From an uncultured Prevotellaceae bacterium (GTDB lineage: Bacteria > Bacteroidota > Bacteroidia > Bacteroidales > Bacteroidaceae): a stretch of DNA of 5,197 bases. The notes under the pieces are model-generated. The model was not told the origin of the DNA. It saw only the letters and a list, made by a program, of their open reading frames with translations, and made no database searches. The stretch lies in the NCBI GenBank assembly GCA_902775075.1, contig CACYKX010000209.1:1-5197 (forward strand), read 5' to 3'. Below are positions 1-5,197 of this stretch, piece by piece. The position numbers were made by a program, and so were the translations under genes. The first letter of the stretch is position 1; each line of letters begins with the position of its first letter.

Positions 1-129
1 CACGTATTCTGGAGAACGCTTGGCTATACCTGTGCCACGAACTTTAGCCGCATCAGCAATTGTCTGTAGTATGGTGTCGACATATTTTATATGTGATTCG
101 TCGGCTACCATAACTTTTATTTCTTCCAT
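1..129 (-). CDS. GNAT-family N-acetyltransferase, N-terminal 43 residues (gene continues past left edge)
   Basis: Reading leftward from an ATG at 129 gives 43 open codons beginning MEEIKVMVADESHIKYVDTI and still open at the window edge. The opening resembles the small GNAT-type acetyltransferases that commonly follow argR in Bacteroides/Prevotella, ahead of argG, argC and argD; I recognise it from family memory, not from a search. The acetyl-CoA-binding motif lies beyond the edge, so the fold cannot be confirmed here. It starts 26 bases after the argR stop on the same strand, so the two are probably co-transcribed. No Shine-Dalgarno precedes it (upstream bases AATTAAGCA), as is normal for this phylum. 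A role in arginine biosynthesis, for example acetylation of glutamate or a related amino acid, is inferred from position only. Confidence 0.72.
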   Translation of the reverse strand, partial: MEEIKVMVADESHIKYVDTILQTIADAAKVRGTGIAKRSPEYV

Positions 130-155
130 TGCTTAATTTTTATTGTGTCGGGGGA

Positions 156-641
156 TTAACCCTCTTGATCCATATTAGATATTATCTTTTTCAATCCTTT
201 CAAAATGTCTTTCTGGGTAGCGCCCTGTCGTATAACGATAAATATGGTGTCGTCGCCGGCGATAGTGCCAAGTATTCCTTGAAAATCGCTGTTGTCGATA
301 TTGTATGCGATGCTACTTGCGTAGCCAGGGCGTGTTTTGATGACAGCCATGTTGCCTGAGAAGTTGATAGAAAGAAATCCTGGAGTGCGAAGCATTTCCT
401 GTGCTGTCATAGGATTGGTGATACGTTTGTACATGGTTTCGTTAGGTAATACATATACGTATTTTCCATTCATACTGGCAGCTTTTGCAACTTTTAGTTG
501 TTTCAAGTCGCGGCTTAGCGTTGCCTGAGTCAGTTGAAAACCTTCTTTTGCAAGTGCTTGTAGTACTTCTTCCTGAGTGCTTAATTCCTGACTGGAAATA
601 AGCATCTTCAGAGTTTCCATTCTTTGATTCTTTATCTTCAT
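156..641 (-). CDS. argR: Arginine repressor ArgR
   Basis: This 161-residue protein has the full ArgR layout and roughly the family's usual length (about 150-160). Residues 1-70 form the winged helix-turn-helix DNA-binding domain, with the recognition segment TLSRDLKQLK at 41-50 including the conserved Ser-Arg pair. Residues 83-158 form the hexamerisation and arginine-binding domain, with TRPGYAS at 103-109 and the diagnostic GTIAGDDTIFIV at 125-136. The two Asp residues (130, 131) match the pair that contacts L-arginine in known ArgR proteins. It should bind arginine as a hexamer and control arginine metabolism genes. The start at 641 is preferred over Met8 because the residues before Met8 match the usual family N-terminus. 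The GNAT gene follows 26 bases downstream. A perfect promoter lies just upstream, and an ARG-box-like dyad sits in the leader, suggesting autoregulation. Confidence 0.95.
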   Translation of the reverse strand: MKIKNQRMETLKMLISSQELSTQEEVLQALAKEGFQLTQATLSRDLKQLKVAKAASMNGKYVYVLPNETMYKRITNPMTAQEMLRTPGFLSINFSGNMAVIKTRPGYASSIAYNIDNSDFQGILGTIAGDDTIFIVIRQGATQKDILKGLKKIISNMDQEG

Positions 642-645
642 CTTA

Positions 646-659
646 TGAATTATTATACG
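646..659. promoter_or_regulatory. Candidate ARG box (ArgR operator) in the argR leader
   Basis: The plus-strand sequence TGAATTATTATACG matches 8 of the 10 fixed positions of the classical ARG-box consensus TGAAT-WWWW-ATTCA, and its four central bases are all A/T as required. It lies between the predicted transcription start and the argR start codon, a natural place for repression of argR by its own product. The consensus comes from enterobacterial and Bacillus ArgR; the Bacteroidetes box may differ, so this is a candidate only. Confidence 0.4.
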
Positions 660-670
660 GTTGTTGACTG

Positions 671-702
671 CAAAACTACAATTTTATGTTGAAATAACCA
701 AA
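671..702 (-). promoter_or_regulatory. Bacteroidetes-type promoter for argR
   Basis: On the minus strand a -33 element TTTG (699-702) is separated by 20 bases from a -7 element TAGTTTTG (671-678). This is an exact match to the Bacteroidetes primary-sigma pattern TTTG-N19-21-TAnnTTTG. Transcription would begin near 664-666, leaving a leader of about 24 bases before the argR ATG at 641. Confidence 0.8.
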
Positions 703-1033
703 TAAATTGTATAAAAAATACGATATTTGCCGTAAATTTGTAAGATTATATAAGTTTTGTGCAATATTTATCCAATAATATATAATTCGTGGAAGTCTAG
801 AATATGTGTTGGATATTTAATGCGCTTGAATGCCAATTCTCGTCCACTAAAGAATTTAATTTGAAGAATATCATAACGCTGGAGAGTTTTTGCCTATACA
901 ATTATTACAACAATTTTGATTTATTATACGGAAATATTGAAAAATAAAACAATTCTAAGGTTGTTGCGTTATTAACTTGAATTCAAAAAAGTTTAATGAA
1001 CCTTTCATTGTTTAATTTTTTCCTGTAAAAAGG

Positions 1034-1096
1034 TGCTCATAATTCGCGAATTCAGATTTAAAGGCAGGTTGATTGTGAATATTAGAAATATGAGCA
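1034..1096. repeat. Inverted repeat enclosing a 12-bp perfect palindrome
   Basis: TGCTCATA at 1034-1041 and TATGAGCA at 1089-1096 are perfect 8-bp inverted copies. Just inside the left arm, and sharing base 1041 with it, is the perfect 12-bp palindrome AATTCGCGAATT (1041-1052). The arrangement could fold as a hairpin or serve as a regulator site. No function can be assigned from sequence. Confidence 0.5.
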
Positions 1097-1177
1097 AATT
1101 GTAAGGACTTGATTATCAGATGGTTGAGATTTTGAGAACTCGCTTTACTCCCGAAAAATACAGGTTTTGTAGGCTTA

Positions 1178-1265
1178 TTCAGTTAACTATGTAGCCCGAT
1201 ATACCTATTCACGTGAGTTTACGAAGTTAACTACGTAGGCAGATGAAGTTAACTTCGTTCAGAAA
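1178..1265. repeat. Palindromic GTTAAC repeat cluster with 22-bp period
   Basis: GTTAAC cores occur at 1182-1187, 1226-1231 and 1248-1253, spaced 44 and 22 bases, so they fit a 22-bp register with one decayed unit at 1200-1221. The units at 1178-1199 and 1222-1243 agree at 16 of 22 positions. Perfect short palindromes are interleaved: TCACGTGA (1209-1216), CTACGTAG (1231-1238) and GAAGTTAACTTC (1245-1256). ACGAAGTTAACT (1221-1232) and AGTTAACTTCGT (1247-1258) form a 12-bp perfect stem around a 14-base loop. The density and phasing are well beyond chance in AT-rich DNA. It resembles an interspersed palindromic repeat family I associate with Prevotella intergenic regions; that association is from memory and unverified. 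Confidence 0.75.
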
Positions 1266-1274
1266 AACAACTTT

Positions 1275-1318
1275 TTGGGGAGCACTTTTCATGTTTTTCA
1301 GAGCTTCTGCGACCCCAA
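1275..1318. repeat. Stem-loop TTGGGG/CCCCAA
   Basis: TTGGGG (1275-1280) pairs with CCCCAA (1313-1318), and after a small bulge GCA (1282-1284) pairs with TGC (1308-1310). The 23-base loop is T-rich. No U-tract follows immediately and no gene ends here, so I do not call it a terminator. It abuts the GTTAAC cluster and may belong to the same repeat element. Confidence 0.4.
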
Positions 1319-1337
1319 TAATTCCTAGATGAAGCAA

Positions 1338-1367
1338 AAAACTGTAACTTTTTCTTTTAACAGTTTT
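1338..1367. repeat. Hairpin AAAACTGT / ACAGTTTT
   Basis: AAAACTGT (1338-1345) and ACAGTTTT (1360-1367) are perfect 8-bp inverted copies with a 14-base T-rich loop. Flanking GC bases (1334-1335 and 1368-1369) would lengthen the stem past an AA bulge. Function unknown; it lies within the repeat-rich segment. Confidence 0.45.
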
Positions 1368-1400
1368 GCGGCAAAGTTTAAATATTACAAAAATATACTC

Positions 1401-1430
1401 TTCGGGATTCGTTCGGGATTCGTTCGGGAG
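1401..1430 (+). repeat. Tandem repeat TTCGGGATTCG, period 11 bp
   Basis: Two exact copies of the 11-mer TTCGGGATTCG (1401-1411, 1412-1422) are followed by a partial third, TTCGGGAG (1423-1430). The TTCGGGA core therefore recurs three times at one helical turn, on the same DNA face. An inverted copy, CTCCCGAA, lies at 1148-1155, the exact reverse complement of 1423-1430. The tandem lies 57 bases upstream of the -33 element of the GH28 gene. It could be a regulator-binding array or the edge of a repeat element. Confidence 0.75.
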
Positions 1431-1486
1431 AAATGGTATTTGATAATGAGAATCATGAGGATGAAGTAAAAAAACTTGGTTAAAAA

Positions 1487-1518
1487 TTTGCTAAAAAGAA
1501 TCAAAATTAATATATTTG
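1487..1518 (+). promoter_or_regulatory. Bacteroidetes-type promoter for the GH28 gene
   Basis: A -33 element TTTG (1487-1490) and a -7 element TATATTTG (1511-1518) are separated by exactly 20 bases, an ideal match to TTTG-N19-21-TAnnTTTG. Transcription would start around 1523-1525, giving a very short leader of about 12-14 bases before the ATG at 1537. No Shine-Dalgarno is present in that leader. Confidence 0.8.
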
Positions 1519-1536
1519 CCATGTTATAGATAAACC

Positions 1537-2850
1537 ATGAGATTTAGAACACTATTCATACTATTATTATTTCCGTTCAGCTTAATAGCCAAAGACTATA
1601 ATGTGATAGATTTTGGCGCTTGGGGAAATGGTAGTCATGACGATGCTGTAAGTATTCAGCGCGCCATAGATGCTTGTTCACAAGCGGGTGGTGGCGTTGT
1701 CGTCTTCCCTTCCAATCATGTTTTCGTGTCCGGTCCTGTCGAACTGAAATCGAATATCTCCATATTTTTGGAATCTAATGCTGTATGGAAAGCTAATCCT
1801 GATGAGTCGATATATCATTTAAGTGCCTTTGGAAAGAACGAAGGTGAAGGTATGATGTGGATATATTCTCGGAATATTGAAAATGTTTCGATAACCGGTA
1901 AGGGTATCATTGATGGTAACGGAGTGGCGTTTATGGGCAAGGAATTGGCAGATTCCTATGAACTGAAACCTGTAACGACCTTTGATCCGCGCCCTCATGT
2001 GCTCACTTTGATGGGAATTCGTAATCTTACAATTCGCGACGTCACCATTCAGAACGGAGCCTATTGGACTGTTCATCTCATCGGTTGCGAAGGGGTAACG
2101 ATAGACGGTATCCAACTTCTGAATAATTTGAAGATCAGAAATGGAGATGGTATTGATATCGATCATAGCAGGAAAGTAAGAATTTCAAATTGCCATATCA
2201 CGTCAGGTGACGACTGTATCTGTCTGAAGAACCGTCGTGAATATAAAGAATACGGTCCGTGTAAGGATATTGTTGTCTCCAACTGTACGATGACCTCTCG
2301 CAGTTGTGCCATAAAGATCGGTAGTGAGAATATGGATTCAATCAGTAATGTATTGTTTGATAATTGTGTGATAACAGCCAGCAACAGAGGATTGGGTATT
2401 CAAAACCGAGACGAAGGAACGGTTACTAATGTGGTATTTTCTAATATCATCCTTGATTGTCAATTGTGGAGCGATGTATGGTGGGGCAAGGCAGAACCTA
2501 TCTATGTCACCTCCTTCCCTCGGGCCAATGGTAATCATAAAGATGCCAACTGGCGTTTCCCGGAGGGTGAGACTAAGGGACGCTGTGGCGAAGTGAGCAG
2601 AATATTCTTTAATAATATTTATGCGACGAGTGAAAATGGATGTTATGTAGGAGGAGACACTTATGGAAAGGTAAATCACGTGTATTTTAATCATGTGAAT
2701 ATCATGTTGAGACGATTGACCAATTACCCTAATGATGTCATGGACTTACGCCCTTGCAGAGATGAATCATTCGTAAAGCGTGATGGTCAATTGGTAGTAT
2801 CGCATCAGACTAAAGACTGTAAGCTTGATGTCATCCAACTGAAACCTTAG
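1537..2850 (+). CDS. Secreted glycoside hydrolase family 28 (polygalacturonase-like) beta-helix enzyme
   Basis: The 437-residue protein starts with a signal peptide (MRFR followed by a hydrophobic run to about residue 18, cleavage near SLIA/KD), so it should be exported. Residues 20-84 carry the pectate-lyase-superfold opening (VIDFGAWGNGSHDDAVSIQ, then an AGGGVVVFP turn). Two GH28 active-site motifs are clear: NGDGIDID at 202-209 (for canonical NTD) and SGDDCICLKN at 223-232, which supply the three catalytic Asp residues. The canonical GHG histidine motif is replaced by SRSCAIKIGSE (254-264), and the RIK position reads RGLGIQNRDEG (284-294). The WWGKAEPIYVTSFPR segment at 315-329 is typical of bacterial GH28 members. 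The expected role is hydrolysis of galacturonic-acid-containing glycans such as pectin or rhamnogalacturonan, but the exact substrate is open. It ends in tandem TAG TAG and precedes a susC-type gene, as in a polysaccharide utilization locus. Confidence 0.85.
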   Translation: MRFRTLFILLLFPFSLIAKDYNVIDFGAWGNGSHDDAVSIQRAIDACSQAGGGVVVFPSNHVFVSGPVELKSNISIFLESNAVWKANPDESIYHLSAFGKNEGEGMMWIYSRNIENVSITGKGIIDGNGVAFMGKELADSYELKPVTTFDPRPHVLTLMGIRNLTIRDVTIQNGAYWTVHLIGCEGVTIDGIQLLNNLKIRNGDGIDIDHSRKVRISNCHITSGDDCICLKNRREYKEYGPCKDIVVSNCTMTSRSCAIKIGSENMDSISNVLFDNCVITASNRGLGIQNRDEGTVTNVVFSNIILDCQLWSDVWWGKAEPIYVTSFPRANGNHKDANWRFPEGETKGRCGEVSRIFFNNIYATSENGCYVGGDTYGKVNHVYFNHVNIMLRRLTNYPNDVMDLRPCRDESFVKRDGQLVVSHQTKDCKLDVIQLKP

Positions 2851-2871
2851 TAGAATAGAATCTAAATACAC

Positions 2872-2886
2872 CTTATTATACATAAG
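2872..2886 (+). other. Small inverted repeat in the GH28-susC gap
   Basis: CTTAT (2872-2876) and ATAAG (2882-2886) form a 5-bp AU-rich stem around a 5-base loop in the 83-base gap. The stem is too weak to be a convincing intrinsic terminator. No TAnnTTTG promoter is visible in the gap either, so the susC-type gene may be read from the GH28 promoter or from a promoter I cannot recognise. Confidence 0.25.
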
Positions 2887-2933
2887 TATATATTCCTTGA
2901 AACTAAATAGTATTAACTAAATAACTAACAATT

Positions 2934-5060
2934 ATGCACAGCGTACAAAAGAAAATCACGAGCAACTGTAAGCGCGTTGCGGCTTCAGCCTTGCTGTTTT
3001 TTGTAAGTTCAATTGCATTTGCCCAAAGTCAGGTTACGGGTACCGTGAAAGATGTCAATGGTGAACCTCTGATAGGAGTAAGTGTTGTTGAAGAGGGAAC
3101 AACAAACGGGACTGTTACCGATATGGAAGGTAAATATACCTTGAATGTTAAGTCTGGAGCTAAGTTGAAAATCTCTTATATCGGTTTTACGACACAAGAG
3201 ATCAAGGCTGGTGCTTCAAAGAATATAGTATTGAAAGAAGATAATAAGACCTTGAACGAAGTTGTCGTAGTGGGTTATGGTACGATGCGTCGTAAGGATG
3301 TTACTTCTTCGATTACAACAATTAAGTCGGAAGATTTAAACAAGGGCGTATTCTCTGACCCTGCACAGATGTTACAAGGTAAGGTGCCCGGATTGATCGT
3401 TACCTCGAATGGCGACCCTAACGGATCACCGGCGATATCTCTTCGTGGAGCATCTTCTCTTCGTGGTGGTGAAGCCATGTCACCTTATTATGTTATCGAC
3501 GGAATTCCTGGTGTTGATATCTCTATGGTTGCTCCTGATGATATTGAGAGTATCGATGTACTTCGTGATGCTACGGCTACAGCAATCTATGGTTCAAAGG
3601 CGGCTAATGGTGTTATCATCATTACCACCAAGAAGGGTGCTGCCGGTCATACGAATGTCACTTATAATGGTTATGTAGGTTTCGATCGCATCGCCAAGAC
3701 TTTGGATATGATGTCGGCAAGTGAGATGAAGGCATTCGCTTCGGAGACCGGAACTGCCATTGACGATAATGGTGGGGATGTAGACTGGCAGAAGGAAGTT
3801 CTCCGTACTGGTGTGAGCTACAATCACAATGTCAGCATTAATGGTGGTAATGACAAGACCAAGTATATGGCAAGTGTGAACTATCAGAAACGTAACGGTA
3901 TCATCAAGGGTAGTGATATGAGCCGTATGAATGTTCGTTCTCTCTTGTCAACAAAGATCTTGAGGGATCATTTGGATTTGTCTATTGGCGCTAACCTGAT
4001 GTATGGTAAGTTTGAAGGTGTCGCTATGAATAGTGAGGGCGGTTCTGTGATGGATGCTATGAACTATTTCTCACCGCTTAATCCTGTTGACTTTAATGGT
4101 AAGGACAAAAACTATAATCCACTTCGTATGATAGACGAGGATACAAGTTCTAACACTTGGAAGCGTCAGCAGTTTGTCGGTAAGGCTACATTGCATATCA
4201 TCAAAGGATTGGATTTGAACGCGAACTATTCTTTTGGTAATCATCAGCGTACATCAAGTAGCTACGATTCTCGTCTTTCAGAACTTACGATGGGTAAGAA
4301 TGGTCAGGCCAATCGCAATACCTATCTGGGTGACGAAAGTACTTTCGAAATCTATGGTAACTATAGTCATACCTTTAACAAACTCCATTCACTCAGTTTG
4401 ATGGCTGGTTATAGTTGGGAAGAAAAACATCATGGAGACGGATTCGGTCTTACCGTGTACAATTTCTTTGATGATTACGTAAAGTATAATAATCTCACTT
4501 ATGCAAGTTCTATAGACGGTATATCCGGAATACAGAGCGGAACGAAGGAGAATATCAGAAACATTTCTTTCTATGGTCGTTTGAACTATGCCTTTGCAAG
4601 TAAATATATGTTGCAGGCTACGGTTCGCCGTGACGGAAGTTCTGTCTTCGGTAAAAATCATCGTTGGGGAACATTCCCATCAGTATCTGTAGCATGGAAT
4701 ATTACAGAGGAAAACTTTATGAAAAACCTCAACCTTATCGAAGAAGGATACGACGATAAGTACGCTGTAAATAAAAATCCGGATATAGATGATGCAGTAT
4801 TGCTTGCGTGTATATATCAGTACAGAGAGAAATTTGCGAATGGAGCGACAGCTTTGCCTATAAAGGATATTTCATCCGGCAATAATGGGGTTGCAAGGAT
4901 ATTTACGATAGAAGATTATTCCTTCAGAGAATCGCTTGAACGGATGAAAAATAATGGATGGATATCTATTGAATCACGAGGAAATCTCGATCAGATAAGA
5001 CTTAAGGATGGAGATAACACTATAGAGATGATGAGAACATATTACAGGGAGCGGAGGTAG
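2934..5060 (+). CDS. SusC/RagA-type TonB-dependent receptor, truncated and fused in frame to an unrelated C-terminal tail
   Basis: The open frame has 708 codons; intact SusC proteins are about 1000. Residues 1-30 are a signal peptide (cleavage AFA/QS). Residues 33-100 are the carboxypeptidase-regulatory-like N-terminal extension (VTGTVKDVNGEPLIGVSV). LNEVVVVGYGT at 107-117 is the TonB-box region. The plug spans about 115-235 and includes the SusC signature DVLRDATATAIYGSKAANGV (208-227). Barrel strands follow to about residue 600, including FPSVSVAWNITEENFMKNLN. There the family normally continues with a LKLRASYGVTGNQ-like segment and about 400 more barrel residues; these are absent. Residues from about 601 are unrelated (see next entry). 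Without the C-terminal barrel and plug-gating partner SusD, transport of oligosaccharides is very unlikely. The A-rich upstream sequence lacks a Shine-Dalgarno. The identity of the N-terminal part is certain; whether the fused protein exists in nature is not. Confidence 0.9.
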   Translation: MHSVQKKITSNCKRVAASALLFFVSSIAFAQSQVTGTVKDVNGEPLIGVSVVEEGTTNGTVTDMEGKYTLNVKSGAKLKISYIGFTTQEIKAGASKNIVLKEDNKTLNEVVVVGYGTMRRKDVTSSITTIKSEDLNKGVFSDPAQMLQGKVPGLIVTSNGDPNGSPAISLRGASSLRGGEAMSPYYVIDGIPGVDISMVAPDDIESIDVLRDATATAIYGSKAANGVIIITTKKGAAGHTNVTYNGYVGFDRIAKTLDMMSASEMKAFASETGTAIDDNGGDVDWQKEVLRTGVSYNHNVSINGGNDKTKYMASVNYQKRNGIIKGSDMSRMNVRSLLSTKILRDHLDLSIGANLMYGKFEGVAMNSEGGSVMDAMNYFSPLNPVDFNGKDKNYNPLRMIDEDTSSNTWKRQQFVGKATLHIIKGLDLNANYSFGNHQRTSSSYDSRLSELTMGKNGQANRNTYLGDESTFEIYGNYSHTFNKLHSLSLMAGYSWEEKHHGDGFGLTVYNFFDDYVKYNNLTYASSIDGISGIQSGTKENIRNISFYGRLNYAFASKYMLQATVRRDGSSVFGKNHRWGTFPSVSVAWNITEENFMKNLNLIEEGYDDKYAVNKNPDIDDAVLLACIYQYREKFANGATALPIKDISSGNNGVARIFTIEDYSFRESLERMKNNGWISIESRGNLDQIRLKDGDNTIEMMRTYYRERR
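4734..5060 (+). pseudogene. C-terminal fragment of a foreign gene, DUF4007-like, fused behind the SusC remnant
   Basis: About 108 residues (601-708 of the open frame) are soluble and mixed-charge, unlike a beta-barrel. Segments such as DDAVLLACIYQYREKF, GVARIFTIEDYSFRESLERM and the ending IEMMRTYYRERR follow the general outline I recall for the C-terminus of DUF4007 proteins: a helix with Y.L/C.I..Y.E, an 'IF.l.d..' segment, an 'L.QI..' strand and a final 'YY'. DUF4007 proteins are about 280-310 residues, so only the last third would be present. All ten Arg codons are AGA, AGG, CGG or CGA, versus 20 of 22 CGT/CGC in the SusC part, and Ile is mostly ATA. No start codon of its own is evident. 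It stops 3 bases before a P-loop gene, with which it probably formed an operon. The DUF4007 call is tentative; a non-SusC origin is well supported. Confidence 0.6.
5053..5057 (+). promoter_or_regulatory. Strong Shine-Dalgarno GGAGG for the P-loop gene
   Basis: GGAGG lies 6 bases before the ATG at 5064, inside the last codons of the preceding frame, and abuts its TAG stop (5058-5060). It supports this start over the in-frame Met7. Neither argR, the GNAT gene, the GH28 gene nor the susC-type gene in this window has such a site. Confidence 0.7.
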
Positions 5061-5063
5061 TGT

Positions 5064-5197
5064 ATGGATTTAGAAGAATACATGAAAATACAGCTCACCG
5101 AAAGGTATAGATGTTTCATATTATGCGGTGCAGGATTAACCGGTAAAACCAAGCTTGTAAAGAAGGCAATTGGTAGTATGGGAGGAAAGTATATTGA
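5064..5197 (+). CDS. Small P-loop NTPase, N-terminal 44 residues (gene continues past right edge)
   Basis: An ATG at 5064 opens a frame that reads to the edge: MDLEEYMKIQLTERYRCFIL and then a Walker A motif GAGLTGKT at residues 22-29, preceded by the hydrophobic strand CFILCG and followed by a helix KLVKKAIGSMG. It should bind ATP or GTP. The Walker A so close to the N-terminus, with a short helix before it, fits small single-domain P-loop proteins such as BrxF of type 3 BREX phage-defence systems, but many AAA-type ATPases begin similarly. The 3-base gap to the preceding frame and the GGAGG overlapping its end imply translational coupling in a foreign operon. Both Arg codons seen are AGG/AGA, like the tail upstream. 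The P-loop call is solid; the BrxF suggestion is weak. Confidence 0.75.
   Translation, partial: MDLEEYMKIQLTERYRCFILCGAGLTGKTKLVKKAIGSMGGKYI

Follow-up and report, generated by a model that had tools for sequence, protein, structure and literature searches.

The closest described counterparts of the locus analysed here are the SusC/RagA receptors, the DUF4007 proteins of BREX and SSP systems and, as a kind of DNA, the chimeric contigs of metagenome assembly. One account describes DUF4007 as a BrxA-like DNA-binding module of three parts that occurs in type 4 BREX and in a BREX-related system (PMC12839542). In metagenome assembly, shared k-mers and errors in sequencing are described as giving rise to chimeric contigs, in which two genomes stand joined at a shared word (PMC7299287). 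The window, by which we mean the whole stretch of 5,197 nucleotides that was analysed, would be a case of the same kind; however, the contigs described in that source involve related species and sequencing errors, whereas here the genomes are distant and the word is short. We conclude that the window is almost certainly a chimeric sequence in which the DNA of two bacteria was falsely joined, an ordinary artefact that contains no new protein.

The window holds a single open frame from 2934 to 5060 on the forward strand, which encodes 708 residues. Residues 33-600 matched the SusC/RagA profile TIGR04056 at profile positions 2-595 of 981, and the score of 537.3 bits passed the curated cut-off of 368.25. 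Residues 596-704 matched PF13182 (DUF4007) at profile positions 177-288 of 288 with an E-value of 1.1e-8, and the score of 35.1 bits passed the gathering cut-off of 27. The original prediction, that a SusC frame runs to about residue 600 and then continues in frame into a DUF4007-like C-terminus, was borne out by these two matches: the frame is SusC/RagA to residue 598 and a DUF4007 C-terminus from there on. On the SusC side, residues 1-598 comprise the carboxypeptidase-regulatory-like domain, the plug and the first half of the barrel, and the N-terminus resembles a signal peptide by eye. The beta-barrel is not completed to the C-terminus, as the profile match stops at position 595 of 981. Directly downstream of the frame there is no susD; the next open reading frame, from 5064 onwards, belongs to a P-loop ATPase gene, of which the window includes the first 134 bases. 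On the DUF4007 side, a full-length DUF4007/SspB protein with three HTH/wHTH modules is likewise absent, the window containing profile positions 177-288 of 288 alone.

Table 1. Features of the window, with their coordinates, strands and the evidence for each.
Feature	Position	Strand	Evidence
argR, arginine repressor, left arm	156..641	-	TIGR01529, 138.1 bits vs 130.45
GH28 polygalacturonase-like gene, left arm	1537..2850	+	PF00295, E 5.5e-27; NF051861, 249.8 bits, under the cut-off of 600
5' part of Prevotella-like susC, residues 1-598	2934..4727	+	TIGR04056; ungapped match to P0002
Junction zone GGAAAACTTTATGAAAAACC, encodes ENFMKN, join somewhere within	4709..4728	+	L001 match starts at 4709; P0002 ENFMKNQN, P0122 ENFMKNLN
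3' end of DUF4007 (SspB/BrxA-like) gene, foreign to the left arm	4728..5060	+	PF13182; P0122; L001
GGAGG, Shine-Dalgarno-like, 6 nt before the ATG at 5064	5053..5057	+	by eye from upstream sequences
Start of small P-loop ATPase gene, of one origin with the DUF4007 end, cut by the edge of the window	5064..5197	+	L001 counterpart of 145 aa, BrxF-like

An intact counterpart exists for the SusC part. In a protein search with the whole frame, the 8000 candidates with the most shared words were scored and 7945 passed. The best match, the SusC protein P0002 of 1003 residues, is identical to the frame at 593 of 598 residues; the alignment is ungapped over residues 1-602, and the five differences fall within residues 1-598. 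P0002 is encoded on five contigs, the longest of 35,199 bases. Beyond the junction it continues with ENFMKNQNVLSNLKLRFGYG, the very segment that had been expected there, and its residues 599-1003 have no counterpart in the frame. These are 405 residues, in place of which the frame has 110 foreign residues. Query coverage was at most 85% in all of the best 120 of the 7945 matches. The short SusC matches P0029, P0115 and P0120 (635-696 residues) all continue through the LKLR segment, and the junction occurs in none of them. A pattern for the intact SusC segment fits 70 of the best 120 SusC matches and is too strict for counting intact copies.

Among the best 120 of the 7945 matches, the relatives that carry names come from Prevotella in four rows and from a Bacteroidales MAG in one, at 66-68% identity, and for this reason the left arm of the window, up to the junction, is called Prevotella-like. 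Judging from these proteins, it probably derives from a Prevotella-like Bacteroidota genome. The DNA of the left parent was not found among plasmids, where the best of 11 records covered 15% of the query at 74.7%; no pattern for it matched in viral contigs, and a search of phages with the whole window gave no match. The intergenic DNA between argR and the GH28 gene carries AGTTAACT-CGT repeats (1181-1258); the direct copies at positions 1181 and 1225 agree at 85%, and 1221-1232 and 1247-1258 form a perfect inverted repeat of 12 nt. Short tandem TTCGGGATTCG units, two and a part by eye, lie before the GH28 gene at 1401-1430.

The remainder of the frame has an intact counterpart as well. At normal DUF4007 lengths, a search with the tail (residues 593-708) gave 20 proteins of 269-270 residues among 53 candidates. 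The best of them, P0122, is an intact DUF4007 protein of 269 residues; its last 116 residues equal residues 593-708 of the frame at all positions except one (115/116), and its first 153 residues are absent from the frame. The family (PF13182) includes SspB of SSP systems and also occurs as a component of type 4 BREX. The separate search of the two halves that had been proposed as a check was thus run in equivalent form, and it found both an intact SusC protein and an intact DUF4007 protein.

With an alignment of the 20 DUF4007 proteins, 84,980 species genomes were scanned by a pattern-based method, which reaches only relatives that match its two patterns. Two close DUF4007 loci were confirmed in this way, neither of them in Bacteroidota: L001, in a contig titled as a Eubacterium sp. 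MAG of roe deer rumen, and L002, in one titled as a Lachnospiraceae bacterium MAG. Positions 4709-5197 of the window align with L001 gap-free, and 487 of the 489 bases agree. The match starts exactly at 4709, and the 300 bases before this point agree with L001 in register at 27%. Upstream of the matched part, L001 carries the remainder of the DUF4007 gene and then a methylase gene. In the one genome that holds L001, neither a SusC (0/1) nor the DNA of window positions 1-4708 (0/1) was found, while the right arm was found there; this genome is a MAG and perhaps incomplete, so that an empty answer is weak. Among 150 genomes of the same family, 8 contain a match to P0122, which is close (97%) only in the genome of L001 itself and of 21-28% identity in the other seven. 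In viral contigs, 33 stretches fit a pattern for DUF4007 relatives and none was confirmed. The matching MAG may come from the ruminant catalogue of PMC8199421. The related DUF4007 gene of L002 (5990-6267) is itself cut at about residue 182, only query residues 182-269 being present, and is preceded by unrelated sequence; this is either another false join or a real truncation.

The genes in L001 (4912 bases) are, in order, a methylase, the DUF4007 gene, a 145-residue ATPase and a large ATPase that is cut by the contig end. The methylase matched the PADLOC models DrmMI (5.5e-64), type IIG (8.1e-55) and PglX (1.6e-9) and the Pfam family Eco57I (1.7e-26). The DUF4007 protein matched SspB models of PADLOC (best 6.5e-15), the small ATPase matched BrxF (1.4e-5) and the large ATPase matched SspC (best 6.3e-14). 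The tail of the frame in the window was likewise matched by the PADLOC models BrxP and SspB. From its gene content L001, which is cut at both ends, looks like part of a phage-defence operon related to BREX and SSP. It differs from SSP systems in that the neighbour of the DUF4007 gene is an Eco57I-type methylase and in that its 4912 bases showed no PAPS reductase. With a methylase standing beside SSP-like and BrxF-like genes, the operon may be an unusual hybrid of BREX and SSP.

The position of the join can be confined to a short zone. Base 4708 differs from the DUF4007 parent and is thus left-derived. Residue 599 is Gln in P0002 (CAR), whereas the window has CTC, so that base 4729 would stem from the right parent, provided that the left parent shares Gln 599 with P0002. 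Together, these two bases place the breakpoint within 4709-4728, slightly upstream of the range of 4730-4745 given by the original prediction. The last 18-19 bases of the susC part fall in this zone and could come from either parent. At the junction P0002 reads TEENFMKNQN and the DUF4007 parent YTENFMKNLN. Both parents encode ENFMKN in the same frame, and the open frame therefore continues across the junction; this supersedes the earlier reckoning that the frame was kept by a one-in-three chance.

ENFMKN is the longest peptide common to P0002 and the DUF4007 protein of L001 in a comparison independent of the window, and no other shared peptide exceeds 3 residues. When P0002 was shuffled 200 times, the maximum length of a shared peptide was 3 residues in 12 shuffles, 4 in 150, 5 in 35 and 6 in 3. 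A shared hexapeptide between two such proteins is uncommon and not extraordinary, and it is its position exactly at the junction, in the same frame, that counts. The peptide occurs in 12 of the best 120 SusC matches and in 5 of the 20 DUF4007 proteins. At the level of DNA the overlap is at most 20 bases (4709-4728), an upper bound in that the left parent is known as a protein; six of these positions might differ in the left parent, namely five synonymous sites in ENFMKN and base 4709. The next longest word common to window positions 1-4728 and L001 has 12 bases, the 20-mer being partly by construction. By formula, two 3-Mb genomes of even composition should have about 16 20-mers in common by chance, and such overlaps should therefore be plentiful in a mixed sample. 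The junction 20-mer also occurs at L011:8550-8569, in an IMG/VR contig of 12,870 bases, presumably by chance.

Of the two explanations originally offered, an insertion or deletion and a chimeric contig, the second is the one that stood. The parents are intact, the left as a protein and the right as both protein and DNA; the DNA boundary is sharp, the short stretch at the junction is shared in frame, and the searches gave no family of fused proteins. Each arm closely matches a different organism in which the gene is whole, the left arm at the protein level and with its organism assigned through relatives. Against an insertion or deletion, each gene is broken in its interior and no end of an element is visible, and the right arm agrees with a Eubacterium MAG at 487/489 bases while the left arm was not found in that genome. 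The insertion of a defence island was dismissed because both genes are cut mid-gene.

In the sequence of events that we propose, the first 4708 to 4728 bases would come from a Prevotella-like Bacteroidota genome with argR, the GH28 gene and susC, and the remainder from a Eubacterium-like genome, where the end of a DUF4007 gene and the start of a small ATPase gene would belong to a BREX/SSP-like defence operon. The two genes would happen to share the peptide ENFMKN, read in one and the same frame, and with it as many as 20 identical bases. The crossing from one template to the other would then have taken place at this stretch, either in assembly or through template switching in amplification, and left the reading frame open. 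We infer that the join was made outside a cell, by assembly or amplification. Common assemblers usually go no lower than k = 21, one above the 20-base overlap. The crossing would thus have required something further, be it a difference between strains, an error in sequencing, the merging of overlaps or a template switch. The right arm extends 469 bases past the overlap; provided that the window represents the entire contig, this length would fit a brief spurious extension of a contig's end. The fused frame is real in the letters and most probably exists in no cell.

A real recombination, in which a piece of a Eubacterium-like defence operon very recently entered a Prevotella-like susC at the short shared stretch and truncated the receptor, would also leave the frame open and would place a short similarity exactly at the junction. 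Defence genes pass between genomes, and as a general matter this mobility speaks for such an event. However, the breaks fall inside both genes and reveal no end of an element, a near-identical intact SusC exists, neither of the two close DUF4007 loci confirmed in the two-pattern scan of 84,980 species genomes is in Bacteroidota, and an identity of 487/489 to a Eubacterium MAG demands a very recent transfer between phyla. We consider this explanation improbable. That a very recent inter-phylum recombination at a stretch of at most 20 bases gave rise to an open SusC-DUF4007 frame in one lineage is, in our judgement, very improbable.

A functional fused protein or family, consisting of the SusC plug, half a barrel and a DUF4007 tail, could be read from the continuous 708-residue frame and its signal-peptide-like N-terminus (by eye). 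When proteins of about 390-1240 residues were searched, the tail was present in 0 of 73 candidates, and a family of this architecture was rejected on that count. Because these searches scored cluster representatives, a fused protein belonging to a 90% cluster would escape them; neither the 73 candidates nor the best 120 of the 7945 whole-frame matches included the fused protein of the window itself, which leaves the 73-candidate search with no positive control. A functional fusion would lack 405 of the 1003 residues of SusC and, at the start of its DUF4007 part, 153 of 269 residues. Outer-membrane barrels and DNA-binding subunits act in separate compartments, which also argues against a joint function, and we regard a functional fusion as hardly credible.

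The arginine codons bear on whether the two arms share a genome. Of the 22 Arg codons upstream of codon 599, 20 are CGT or CGC, compared with 0 of 10 downstream of it, a count identical to the one that the original prediction had given. Taken alone, the codon switch is weak evidence, since of the 24 Arg codons in the GH28 gene, likewise on the left arm, 8 are AGA and only 11 are CGT or CGC. In the 20 nt before the three left-arm starts (argR, GH28 and susC) there is no GGAGG-type motif of the sort that precedes the ATPase gene. Such Shine-Dalgarno sites are seldom used by Bacteroidota. The idea that the DUF4007 end is native to the genome of the left arm, and that a deletion between two loci truncated susC, has in its favour that a short shared stretch could mediate a deletion, but its probability is negligible given the GGAGG site, Arg codons unlike those of susC and the identity of the right arm to Eubacterium at 487/489 bases.

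If the join were true, it would represent a striking recombination between phyla at minimal homology. As a chimeric sequence, the window is a caution: an open frame across two genomes yields one protein with two valid domain matches, which can be mistaken for a new domain architecture. Intact parents together with a short shared in-frame peptide at the junction provide a cheap and general test for such false joins.
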